Of a DNA stretch of 64,000 nucleotides, positions 15,876 to 39,728 are shown piece by piece. Every line of letters starts with the position of its first letter. Positions within the stretch are counted from its first letter, which is position 1. The stretch is from assembly GCF_903469665.1 (NCBI RefSeq), contig NZ_CAGKLC010000012.1:3727-67726 (forward strand), in the 5' to 3' direction. This DNA comes from Flavobacterium sp. UGB4466 (GTDB lineage: Bacteria; Bacteroidota; Bacteroidia; Flavobacteriales; Flavobacteriaceae). A program made the translations under genes and the position numbers. Below the pieces are notes generated by a model. That model did not search any database and had not been told where the DNA came from. It saw nothing but the letters and a program-made list of their open reading frames with translations.

Positions 15876-16811
15876 TTAGCTTCTTGGCAAAAATACTTCA
15901 GCCATCATACAGCGGGCACTTCCACCTCCACAAGCTTCGATAGTATCCAAACTGGAACTTAAAATTTCCGCATGATTTTCTAATTGTGCAATTTGTTTCG
16001 GAGTCAGACTCTGATGTGCCGATGCACTCATTACAATATATCTCTTATCATTTGTACCTCGAACTTCCAGCATATTTCCGGCAAAATTATTTACCTGTGC
16101 TTCGGTGATTAGAATAACTTCCTTTTTATCCGCTTTTAGATTTTCAAGAACCATTTTACGTTCTTTTTTATCATCGATACTATCTGCACAGATAACAGCG
16201 AATGTTTCACCCAGACACATCATTACATTCGTATGATAAATCAATTTACGTTCTCCGTCAACCGTTTGAAAAGCTTCAAAAATAACCGGGGCATAATCAA
16301 AATCTTCACAGAATTCGATAAACAGCTCTTCATCTGCACGAGGAGACAAAGCGCAGTACGCTTTTGCATTTGCTCTATCCAAAAGCAGACTTCCGGTTCC
16401 TTCTAAAAAATAGCCATCTTCTTCTGCCGATGTATAGTCAACTATATTTGAGATCTCAAAGCCATTCTCTTCAAGCGTATCTAAAATATCTTCACGGCGC
16501 TCCTGACGACGATTCTCTGCAAACATCGGATACAGTGCCACATCTCCATTTTCATGAAATGAAATCCAGTTATTTGGAAAAATACTATCCGGGGTATCGG
16601 TTTCTAAAGTATCTTCAATAACAGTGACATCAACTCCAACTGCTCTGAGTTTCTCAACAAAAGTATCGAATTCCTGTTGTGCTTTTGCATTTACCGTACT
16701 TGGTAAAAGTCCGTCTAATACTTTTTGATAATAATTATTTACTGCCGTTTGCTCATTCATTCTGAAAGCTACTGGCCGAATCATTACGATCGCATTTGTA
16801 GTTTGTTTCAT
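15876..16811 (-). CDS. ctlX: CtlX-like citrulline/arginine-modifying hydrolase
   Basis: This 311-residue protein of the guanidino-group-modifying (arginine deiminase/amidinotransferase) superfamily has the ordered motifs FPNNWISFH, EGTGSLLLDR, IYHTNVMM (catalytic His) and a C-terminal GGGSARCMMAE with the presumed nucleophile Cys at 301. Relatives named CtlX (citrulline utilisation hydrolase) convert citrulline to ornithine. The substrate here is inferred. A frame seven codons longer begins at 16832, but MKQTTNAIVMIRP at 16811 matches family starts better. It follows the DDAH-like gene, separated by a heptad inverted repeat. Confidence 0.82.
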   Translation of the reverse strand: MKQTTNAIVMIRPVAFRMNEQTAVNNYYQKVLDGLLPSTVNAKAQQEFDTFVEKLRAVGVDVTVIEDTLETDTPDSIFPNNWISFHENGDVALYPMFAENRRQERREDILDTLEENGFEISNIVDYTSAEEDGYFLEGTGSLLLDRANAKAYCALSPRADEELFIEFCEDFDYAPVIFEAFQTVDGERKLIYHTNVMMCLGETFAVICADSIDDKKERKMVLENLKADKKEVILITEAQVNNFAGNMLEVRGTNDKRYIVMSASAHQSLTPKQIAQLENHAEILSSSLDTIEACGGGSARCMMAEVFLPRS

Positions 16812-16833
16812 TTTATATGTTTTTTTTTTCATT

Positions 16834-16885
16834 TCAAGTTTCAGGTTTCAAGTTTGTGGAACCTGAAACCTGAAACCTGAAACTT
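16834..16885. repeat. heptad inverted repeat A
   Basis: Three 7-bp units of form TCARGTT (16834-16854) are followed by a five-base spacer and three exact AACCTGA units (16860-16880) plus a partial unit. AACCTGA is the reverse complement of TCAGGTT, so the array is a heptad-phased palindrome. The longest perfect arms are 16836-16850 and 16871-16885 (15 bp). It occupies the spacer between two same-strand genes. Confidence 0.9.
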
Positions 16886-16887
16886 TT

Positions 16888-17802
16888 TTAGTCTCTTATT
16901 AATGGTAAAGTGGAACATCTCAACAATCCCTCCTGCTTTGCAATTTCTGCATATGGAATTTCCTCTACCATAAAACCATTAGCACGCAGCCAATTGTTCA
17001 GACGGGTAAAATTCTTTTCGGAAACTACAACATTATCGTCGATCGAAAATACGTTTGAAAACATATTATACATTTCGTCTCTTTCGATATGAAACAAATT
17101 TTCTTTTCCAAAAAGATTCACCAGATACAAATAATCTGCTTCTTCACGGAAGCCTCTCTTGTAGATAATTCCTTTATCTTTTCCAACAGGCTGAAAACAG
17201 CAGTCAAGGTGTAAGGCATTGTCACGAGCTTCTAATTTAGATTTTACCAAATCAAATTCTTTGACAATTTTATTCGGGAACATTTTTCTTAAATATTCAA
17301 CACCATGCATATTAGTTCTTGCCGTAATGTAATCTTTATAATCACTTCCTTTATAAGTTCCAATAAACACATGATCATTCCACAACATTACATCTCCACC
17401 TTCAATATGAACTTCCTCCGGTGGACGAACTACTTTTAACGGATCCATCTGGTCGATTACGTATTGAATTGCATCCAACTCACGTTCTCTGTCTGGCAGA
17501 ATATTAGATTTCACAAAAGTATCATCTATCACAAAACCTATATCACGGGCAAAAATCTGATTGTAACTCTCAATCATTTCCGGACGATATACTTTTACAT
17601 CATATTTTTGAAAAACGGCATTAAAAGCATCCATTTCGACAATCATATCTTTTTCGATTGGATAAGTCCCGGCTTTAATATGTTCCAATGATTTAGGATC
17701 ATAAGCTTCCTCTAAAGATGGAGTTGGCCCATTATGAACTGCAGAACCCAAAACTACTGCCCGCAGTCTAGACGTTTCGTTCTTTATATTTAATTGCAAC
17801 AT
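16888..17802 (-). CDS. dimethylarginine dimethylaminohydrolase / arginine deiminase-like protein
   Basis: This 304-residue member of the guanidino-group-modifying superfamily has the substrate-site motif HIEGGDVMLW (about 152-161) and HLDCCFQPV with the catalytic His. A C-terminal LLRCSTLPL carries the likely nucleophile Cys at 296. It resembles DDAH and related amidinotransferase-fold proteins that act on arginine or methylarginines to give citrulline. The CtlX-like gene follows at once, so the two could form a short arginine-to-ornithine route. The exact substrate cannot be read from the sequence. Confidence 0.8.
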   Translation of the reverse strand: MLQLNIKNETSRLRAVVLGSAVHNGPTPSLEEAYDPKSLEHIKAGTYPIEKDMIVEMDAFNAVFQKYDVKVYRPEMIESYNQIFARDIGFVIDDTFVKSNILPDRERELDAIQYVIDQMDPLKVVRPPEEVHIEGGDVMLWNDHVFIGTYKGSDYKDYITARTNMHGVEYLRKMFPNKIVKEFDLVKSKLEARDNALHLDCCFQPVGKDKGIIYKRGFREEADYLYLVNLFGKENLFHIERDEMYNMFSNVFSIDDNVVVSEKNFTRLNNWLRANGFMVEEIPYAEIAKQEGLLRCSTLPLIRD

Positions 17803-25190: not shown

Positions 25191-25200
25191 AGTGAATTTG

Positions 25201-25266
25201 CTTTAGGCTTTAGGCTTTAGGCTTTAGGCATAAGTTTTATTGCTTAATGCTTATTGCCTATTGCTT
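25201..25266. repeat. heptad repeat B between infA and rpmJ
   Basis: Three exact CTTTAGG units (25201-25221) are followed by a ten-base spacer and five 7-bp units ending in CTT or CCT (25232-25266: ATTGCTT, AATGCTT, ATTGCCT, then two more). TAGGC with ATAAG on one side can pair with CTTAT and GCCTA on the other with a one-base bulge. It fills the spacer between two co-directional translation genes. Confidence 0.88.
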
Positions 25267-25274
25267 ACAGCTTT

Positions 25275-25490
25275 TTAATATCGATAAGTAATTCTTGCTT
25301 TTGACAAATCGTAAGGACTCATTTCCAATTTCACTTTATCACCAGGTAATAACTTGATGTAATGCATACGCATCTTACCGGAAATATGAGCAATTACAAT
25401 ATGTCCATTTTCTAACTCTACACGGAACATCGCATTTGATAATGCTTCGATGATTGATCCGTCTTGTTCTATTGCTGATTGTTTTGCCAT
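25275..25490 (-). CDS. infA: translation initiation factor IF-1
   Basis: This 71-residue single OB-fold protein ([20 protein letters not shown]) has the IF-1 core [22 protein letters not shown]. It binds the A site of the 30S subunit during initiation. It lies 7 bp after secY and 84 bp before rpmJ. Confidence 0.97.
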
Positions 25491-38663: not shown

Positions 38664-39140
38664 TTAAAATCTAAAGTGAGAGAATGCTTTATTAGCTTCT
38701 GCCATTTTGTGAGTATCCATTCTTTTCTTAACCGCAGCACCTTCTTCTTTAGCAGCTGCTAAACATTCTGACGCTAAACGTTGTGCCATAGATTTTTCAT
38801 TTCTTCTTCTTGAATAAAGTATTAACCACTTCATTGCCATAGAAATTTTTCTGTCTGGACGAATCTGCATTGGAATTTGAAATGTAGCTCCACCTACTCT
38901 ACGGCTACGTACTTCTACGTGAGGCATAACGTTTGTTAAAGCATCTTTCCAAATTTCTAATGAAGTTTTCTCATCATTTTGCTTTTTAGATTCGATGATA
39001 TCAATTGCATCATAAAATACTTTGAAAGCTGTAGATTTCTTACCATCCCACATTAAGTTGTTCACGAAACGTGTTACCAATTGGTCATTAAACCTTGGAT
39101 CTGGTAAAAGTGGTCTTTTCTTTGCCGCTCTTTTTCTCAT
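38664..39140 (-). CDS. rpsG: 30S ribosomal protein S7
   Basis: This 158-residue head assembly protein begins [20 protein letters not shown] and has the conserved [20 protein letters not shown]. It contacts E-site tRNA. It lies 119 bp after rpsL; the spacer is filled by heptad repeat C. Confidence 0.97.
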
Positions 39141-39160: not shown

Positions 39161-39251
39161 GTTATAGGTTATCCGTTAAATGTTATGTGTTACAGATTTC
39201 AAGCACATGCTTAAAGCCCCAACCCTTAACTCCTAACCTCCAACTCTTAAC
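39161..39251. repeat. heptad inverted repeat C between rpsL and rpsG
   Basis: Five units of form GTTNNNN (39161-39195) are followed by a 21-base centre and five units of form NNNNAAC (39217-39251). The whole element is exactly 91 bp, or 13 heptads. The two halves are reverse-complementary in pattern (GTT versus AAC at the same spacing) rather than in full sequence. It lies just after rpsL on the transcribed strand. Confidence 0.9.
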
Positions 39252-39259
39252 GTTTTAAA

Positions 39260-39643
39260 TTACTTTTTTGCTTCTTTTGGGCGTTTAGCACCGTACTTAG
39301 ATCTTCTTTGCGTTCTTCCTGCAACTCCTGACGTGTCAAGCGCTCCACGAACGATATGATATCTAACACCTGGTAAATCTTTTACCCTTCCACCTCGCAC
39401 TAATACTATCGAGTGCTCTTGTAAATTGTGTCCTTCTCCAGGGATGTAAGCATTCACTTCATTACCATTTGTCAAACGTACACGCGCAACTTTACGCATT
39501 GCAGAGTTTGGTTTTTTTGGTGTAGTAGTGTAAACACGCGTACAAACCCCTCTTCTTTGAGGACAAGAATCTAAAGCAACCGATTTACTCTTCTTAGTGA
39601 TCTGAGTTCTTCCTGTTCTTACTAATTGTTGAATTGTTGGCAT
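39260..39643 (-). CDS. rpsL: 30S ribosomal protein S12
   Basis: This 127-residue decoding-centre protein begins [20 protein letters not shown] and has the streptomycin-site segments [15 protein letters not shown] and [20 protein letters not shown]. An open frame extends to 39727, but it overlaps the promoter at 39698-39728. All S12 proteins start at MPTIQQL, so the start is 39643. It is the first gene of the str unit. Confidence 0.97.
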
Positions 39644-39697
39644 AATTAATACTAAAAATTTATTATGTATATTAAATTCCCGCTTTTTACGGGGTTG

Positions 39698-39728
39698 CAA
39701 ATGTATAAAATATTTTTCACTATACAAA
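39698..39728 (-). promoter_or_regulatory. promoter of the rpsL-rpsG-fusA-rpsJ unit
   Basis: On the minus strand TTTG (39728-39725) and TACATTTG (39705-39698) are 19 bp apart, a perfect match to the Bacteroidetes consensus. The predicted leader is about 49 nt. Confidence 0.85.

Follow-up and report, generated by a model that had tools for sequence, protein, structure and literature searches.

How does a spacer between two bacterial genes come to consist of seven-letter words that are repeated on one side of a five-base centre and return, inverted, on the other? The question is raised by locus A, which lies in a stretch of 64,000 nucleotides of a Flavobacterium genome, analysed at its full length and called here the window. 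The layout first proposed for this spacer, three TCARGTT units, five nucleotides and three AACCTGA units, was borne out by re-reading positions 16834-16883, and two further spacers that had been said to have a like architecture are indeed constructed in this way (locus B, 25200-25273, and locus C, 39161-39251; Table 1). All three lie, as had also been claimed, between genes on the same strand, here minus-strand frames; the last base of locus B lies two positions short of the stop end of its neighbour, the gene for initiation factor IF-1. The explanation that we consider probable, and that accounts best for what follows, is that locus A represents a copy, without its gene, of an element encoding a protein of the IVP family (PF05635), the arrays being the ends of that element, read by IVP itself.

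Table 1. The three heptad spacers of the window and the genes that adjoin them.
Feature	Position	Strand	Remark
Locus A, left arm: TCAAGTT TCAGGTT TCAAGTT (TCARGTT x3)	16834..16854		sequence; relatives
Locus A, centre: TGTGG	16855..16859		read from sequence
Locus A, right arm: AACCTGA x3 (16860-16880) + AAC; inverse of left arm	16860..16883		sequence
DDAH family gene flanking locus A	15876..16832	-	start probably 16811, from reading
Arginine deiminase family gene (ctlX-like) flanking locus A	16888..17802	-	
Locus B, left arm: GCTTTAG words, x4.3	25200..25229		
Locus B, right arm: TTATTGC-type heptads	25237..25273		
Initiation factor IF-1 gene adjoining locus B	25275..25490	-	
Locus C, left arm: GTTATAG GTTATCC GTTAAAT GTTATGT GTTACAG (five GTTA+NNN words)	39161..39195		
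Locus C, right arm: TAAC/CAAC at 7-nt steps	39220..39251		
Ribosomal protein S7 gene (rpsG) adjoining locus C	38664..39140	-	
Ribosomal protein S12 gene (rpsL) adjoining locus C	39260..39727	-	

Locus A is far from isolated. Three AACCTGA units in a row, with at most 3 mismatches, have 252 + 123 = 375 matches in the whole genome, against 22 + 5 = 27 for the reversed control. When periods 4 to 15 are scanned in the window, strict thresholds are passed by 7 and its double 14 only. A larger sample of the same genome, 864 kb made of the 64-kb window and 40 pieces of 20 kb, comprises 464 intergenic regions, genes being called by a plain open-frame rule. With a score of at least 18, this sample has 46 intergenic arrays of period 7 and 51 of period 8, with 1 to 6 for each of the periods 5, 6 and 9 to 13 and the multiples 14, 16 and 21 raised, as expected, while its coding DNA has 2 of period 7 and 2 of period 8. 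The heptad period noticed by the initial annotation is enriched, but it is not the sole period, since 8 is equally common. If the threshold is lowered to 15, 63 period-7 and 70 period-8 arrays compare with 12.5 and 12.0 in order-2 Markov shuffles, low complexity being left unfiltered, and the real arrays of this family, which period and symmetry define rather than sequence, are far above shuffled sequence. At this same threshold a listing of periods 5-13 gives 175 arrays, among them 62 of period 7 and 68 of period 8, in 119 of the 464 regions, and part of them, chiefly those rich in A and T, will be due to chance.

When the arrays are read by eye a common design emerges, with inverted arms, few words in each arm, and words that combine a fixed core with variable letters, such as CTRAG+NNN, GTTTCAR, TTTTAGA, AATTAGNN and GTTA+NNN. 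The units of loci A, B and C had been described as unrelated; their letters do differ, but they belong to one class, that of a short core followed by variable spacer letters. Inverted pairs are frequent within this class: in the 398 of 464 spacers that had a suitable length, an inverted repeat scoring at least 30 is present in 29 of the 69 regions with arrays (0 after shuffling) and in 44 of the 329 without (1 after shuffling). Other inverted repeats were noted as well. Those made of CGCAAAG-like words with looser spacing (L045, 14693-14986; L049, 15001-15225) form perhaps a related class, and inverted arrays with units of 12-13 nt, of the CAGTCTCAGTCAC and ACTGCGACTG type (L036, 4371-4457; L059, 16941-17185; L070, 6948-7033), possibly consist of units that are each two words of 6-7 nt.

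The site of locus A was followed in relatives (n = 30). Most of them have GTTTCAR-like arms, whole, shortened or decayed, and the number of units differs by whole units, gained or lost. One relative (G004) has 15 nt at this place and another (G007) an unrelated hairpin. In a third (G099) the spacer extends over 494 nt and its heptad arms, made of other words, enclose a gene, the product of which is a full PF05635 protein (E 2.1e-20).

This family (23S_rRNA_IVP, 'four helix bundle protein') has 9 matches in the Flavobacterium genome of the window and none in 14 control genomes, and it is present in 119 of 121 Flavobacterium genomes, with 1-17 matches in each. Repeat arms flank all eight of the nine IVP genes of our genome that were inspected (six by reading, with L158 and L157 in addition), the ninth being L159, a broken frame; the initial annotation had been made without this protein gene, found between the arms of full copies. 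The arms were studied around 36 frames from 39 loci of the genus, and then at 76 loci that contain these. Period 8 is seen at 37 of the 76 and period 7 at 21, every other period from 5 to 13 being seen at 0-5, and the two arms match in inverted orientation (score at least 30) at 45 of the 76, against 8.6% of mismatched pairs. A second set, of 72 named loci, comes from the best 80 matches listed to one conserved peptide pattern and includes several Flavobacterium. Among these listed matches period 7 is found at 46 loci, period 8 at 16 and the others at 0-4, an inverted match of at least 30 at 35 of the 72 against 0.8% of mismatched pairs, and the labels cover Bacteroidota, Planctomycetota, Verrucomicrobiota, Acidobacteriota, Clostridia, Campylobacterota, Nitrospirota, Poribacteria and others. 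In the 36 genus loci the 3' arm starts no more than 10 nt from the IVP stop codon in 26, and in 17 a distance of 50-69 nt separates the end of the upstream arm from the start codon. The 5' arms of relatives that bear IVP have a G fraction of 0.246 and a C fraction of 0.095. When 148 elements were kept from 159 loci, with both flanks of at least 150 nt and identical copies dropped, a detectable array was absent at 27 of the 148, a set that includes named loci among the matches listed; this counts against the IVP element. Purifying selection acts strongly on two of the IVPs (median dN/dS of 0.040 and 0.081, calculated from intact frames only).

IVP genes are also found in 31 plasmid records, many of them cyanobacterial, and ten plasmids were inspected (nine cyanobacterial, one from Azospirillum), low complexity being unfiltered. 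A period-7 score of at least 15 is reached on both sides of the IVP gene in six of the ten; plasmid L416 has period-7 scores of 13 and 17, L418 has period 8 with scores of 12 and 20, and in L415 and L411 period 7 is seen upstream only, L411 having no inverted partner. The words include CAGAATT/CAGAAGT and AGGGAAC. In two cyanobacterial plasmids the IVP gene sits inside a CRISPR cluster, between cas6 and cas4 in L410 (901-1260) and between cas10 and a Cmr3-family gene in L418 (889-1245).

Several states of a single place were met in the spacer between sufC and sufD, for which 50 loci were assembled, 20 of them added by alignment coordinates, suspected empty sites included. Eighteen of the 50 contain a gene that we name IVP-A between AAAGTCG words, four of these with broken or shortened frames. 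Eight contain IVP-B, about 43% identical to IVP-A, between GTTTCAGG (GTTTCAG) words, which are those of locus A. Another 18 have gene-less arrays, of the GTTTACA/CATAACT type in 11 cases, GTTTAAG in 5, GTTTATA in 1 and the CAGTCTCAGTCACAG type in 1. The last six have 1-2 nt only, a number that is not to be taken as a frequency because suspected empty sites were picked. The type of IVP and the words thus switch together at this place, and the neighbouring genes stay. It had been suggested that such arrays are built from local heptads; a process of this kind is not supported here, given the simultaneous change of both arms and of the gene between them.

In 30 loci of IVP-B relatives (49-100% identity), at sufC-sufD and elsewhere, the words are mostly GTT-cored (GTTTCAR, GTTTAAR, GTTTGTA, GTTGCGG, GTTATYG), with TTGAAAT-like words instead in L383 and L384. 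Locus A carries the word of IVP-B, and, as a point against our reading, our genome has no IVP that is more than 43% identical to IVP-B; its many GTTTCAR arrays, locus A included, are therefore orphans or depend on another IVP. In four species (L318, L321, L322, L323) the IVP-A frame is broken or shortened and the word arms are kept, and this offers a possible path to gene-less copies. Genome G016 (L376 and L325) has two IVP genes in one suf operon, IVP-A between sufC and sufD and IVP-B upstream of sufC.

Within another core operon, that of rpsL and rpsG, where locus C resides, the spacer was readable in 48 of 50 loci. It has GTTA/TAAC arms in 10 of the 48, 22-24 nt without an array in 19, and other spacers in 19, of which at least two have different heptads (L090, L092). 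An inverted repeat of another kind, the GAGACGCG...CGCGTCTC type, fills this spacer in other species (L095, L150) and also fills the ctlX-DDAH spacer in L129. Spacers inside core operons therefore change their content between close relatives, at rpsL-rpsG as at sufC-sufD. No clear target duplication was discerned by eye when filled and empty sites were compared at these two places, and no fresh insertion was seen, which weighs against our reading. In the ten loci with GTTA/TAAC arms the majority identity is 0.89 and 0.87 for the two arms and 0.65 for the loop, and 0.92 for core letters against 0.83 for other arm letters. Arms better conserved than the loop speak for the IVP element; the spacer outside the arms, on the 3' side next to rpsG, is conserved as well (0.92), which counts against it.

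Inverted arms would also be expected of RNA hairpins under selection, pairing in the transcript to serve co-transcribed genes as terminators or as signals for processing or stability. Arrays do prefer spacers whose two flanking genes point the same way (70 of 82, in comparison with 240 of 371), and in the positional test, which covered 101 of 193 elements, the arms match slightly beyond what their common words bring, 67 doing better than word-shuffled arms, 23 worse and 11 equally well; only 7.9% of these 101 have p ≤ 0.05 individually, and binding alone leaves this match without an explanation. Selection on RNA structure, which the initial annotation had envisaged, is nevertheless disfavoured. 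When the mismatches of the arms were counted in 115 of the 193 IVP elements, G.U pairs (85 + 20) were not commoner than A.C pairs (87 + 48), being more numerous in 26 elements and fewer in 45, and in locus C most of the variable letters of the two arms are unpaired. We find the hairpin improbable as the reason for these arrays.

The presence of arrays was compared with that of IVP genes across genomes. Six other genomes were sampled over 60-80 kb each, a small sample and uncorrected for kinship. Two that have no PF05635 match have no period-7 or period-8 array in 80 + 80 kb; genomes with 6 and 8 IVP genes have 18 and 7 arrays, respectively, in 60 kb; and for those with 3 (G022) and 1 the figures are 2 and 4, again in 60 kb, most of these arrays being weak. 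That G022 has 2 arrays despite its three genes counts against the element. In our own genome we find 127 arrays in 800 kb and nine IVP genes in 5.34 Mb. Such an excess of gene-less arrays is what one would expect if IVP genes were passengers that settled in pre-existing arrays kept for another reason, for example to serve a nucleic-acid-binding protein of the host, as was suggested for TAACTGA repeats (PMC4679880, in the part available to us). Passengers would not be expected to change together with the words, as IVP types do at sufC-sufD, nor would arrays kept by the host be missing from the samples of genomes without IVP, and we judge this account decidedly improbable.

The same samples bear on neutral replication slippage at heptamers, a process that Mrazek and others had proposed for long simple repeats (as quoted in the available part of PMC4679880). 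The gain or loss of whole units at locus A fits slippage, and so do certain arrays that are long and near-perfect. It is difficult to reconcile with the restriction to periods 7 and 8, leaving aside 5, 6 and 9-13, with a fixed core that is accompanied by variable letters, with inverted pairs surrounding one protein family, or with samples devoid of arrays where IVP is missing. We hold it to be very improbable, and slippage alone was rejected on these grounds.

Returning to the IVP element, the number of words in an arm is suggestive. Among six sets of arms or arrays, four peak clearly at five words. Five words are found in 32 of 62 period-8 arms of the genus, in 9 of 22 named period-8 arms and 26 of 79 named period-7 arms (both among the matches listed), and, measured by span, in 24 of 62 and 26 of 68 arrays of our genome. 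In two sets four words come close to five or lead, with 23 of the same 79 named period-7 arms and with 11 against 9 in the period-7 arms of the genus (n = 36), and this goes against a five-word reading. Each of the solved relatives, 2gsc and 2rld, contains five chains, and for the protein of Xanthomonas campestris a homopentamer is reported (PMC4990558, available part). Because five words are commonest and five chains are present, we infer that, most likely, a pentameric IVP reads the words of an array, about one per subunit. The protein stepping by 7 nt that the initial annotation had put forward comes close to this pentamer, the binding of which is likewise deduced.

Co-variation of words and proteins gives such reading weak to modest support, and its weakness counts against it. 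This co-variation is weak over the whole family (Mantel r 0.07, with 12 of 300 permutations as high) and modest if adjacent genes only are considered (22 changes against 24.9 after shuffling, 8 of 200 as low), the latter test leaving out 68 of 193 elements that bore no label and reducing the 125 labelled ones to 44 representatives. Grouping by site, too coarse because it lumps 131 labelled elements into 20 groups, gives 16 changes against 18.4 (10 of 200 as low). The word labels favour words already seen, because the regular expressions were chosen after the arrays had been read.

We can therefore sketch the element as follows. A full copy would comprise, in this order, a word array, a leader, the IVP gene and an inverted word array, each array being made of some five 7- or 8-nt words with a fixed core of 3-5 nt and variable letters. 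The IVP pentamer would bind the arrays, as DNA or as RNA, with about one word per subunit, and in this way fix both step and count. Presence and absence at the same sites suggest an element that inserts between genes and has the arrays as its two ends; where a pair encloses no gene, as at locus A, the gene may have been lost, or IVP may be supplied in trans. IVP would be the partner that binds the ends, and cutting and joining would be left to an enzyme.

That enzyme might be thought to be a reverse transcriptase, the element moving via RNA as in diversity-generating retroelements. Avd, the accessory protein of these retroelements, is small, four-helical, pentameric and related to IVP, and the resemblance speaks for the route. 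Both neighbours of an IVP gene run in its direction at 168 of 185 loci, yet at 45 of 60 if each site is counted once; for control genes the figure is 115 of 185. What distinguishes IVP from Avd is that a reverse transcriptase is not its constant partner: in the survey of 121 Flavobacterium genomes PF00078 is found in only 58, ours having one match, and G008 and G042, with six IVP genes each, have none. This route is very unlikely, and an obligatory reverse transcriptase was rejected on these counts.

It may be that the heptamer arrays found between bacterial genes are for the most part termini or relics of a single kind of element that has gone unrecognised. A pentameric ring protein, IVP, would read five consecutive short words; the words would diversify between elements, and step, count and inversion would be kept. 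To this generalization we would give slightly less than an even chance; if it is true, locus A would be one of very many copies without a gene in its genome. Linking heptamer repeats with IVP provides each with a partner, it brings period, inversion and usual length into one picture, and it supplies a testable explanation for many 7-nt repeats between bacterial genes that had none.

It remains to place locus A among known systems. A MITE is a short, gene-less, non-autonomous element whose inverted ends resemble those of gene-bearing relatives. Locus A is likewise short and gene-less, and its inverted ends are common with a gene-bearing element, GTTTCAG words flanking IVP-B in relatives; it differs from a MITE in that the ends of the present elements, being arrays of words, have no fixed sequence, and no transposase is known for them.

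The intervening sequences (IVS) of 23S rRNA have a PF05635-type gene between complementary termini (PMC4990558, available part). Locus A has complementary termini, but only 5 nt between its arms and hence no PF05635/S23p frame inside, a frame that is present in other copies (L151-L158 and the locus A of G099), and it sits between protein genes rather than within a 23S rRNA helix, where an IVS lies until RNase III excises it. Because two of the features of an IVS, the gene inside and the rRNA site, are missing, locus A is not filed as one; it appears to be related to an IVS but to lack the gene. More generally, set against the IVS described in the passages available, the present elements lie between protein genes, not in rRNA, their ends are arrays of variable words, and many copies, as at locus A, are gene-less. 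The same source describes, in Coxiella, tandem heptamers (GACAGAT) directly upstream of an S23p/IVP gene, their number varying between strains.

As a run of tandem 7-nt units between genes, locus A is also an intergenic heptanucleotide repeat, and the remark that no named element of this kind was known has to be qualified: such heptamers are in print (PMC4679880, PMC4692102, PMC6344855), and what stands is that the available parts of these papers do not explain them by IVP. TAACTGA repeats have been reported from Beggiatoaceae, cyanobacteria and some Bacteroidetes (PMC4679880), GGGAATC from Xanthomonas, with paired inverted repeats noted, and GGGGAYT from Nostoc (PMC4692102), and intergenic heptamers have been treated as a general puzzle (PMC6344855). 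Both intergenic heptamers and rRNA IVS with S23p are thus known; we found no statement in the open-licence literature that links the two as a rule, with IVP genes lying between inverted heptad or octad arrays. The repeats already described are likewise made of 7-nt units in a row, are for the most part intergenic and have various words (PMC4679880, PMC4692102); to what the available parts of these papers report, the present class adds period 8, a core with spacer letters, inverted pairs and the IVP gene.
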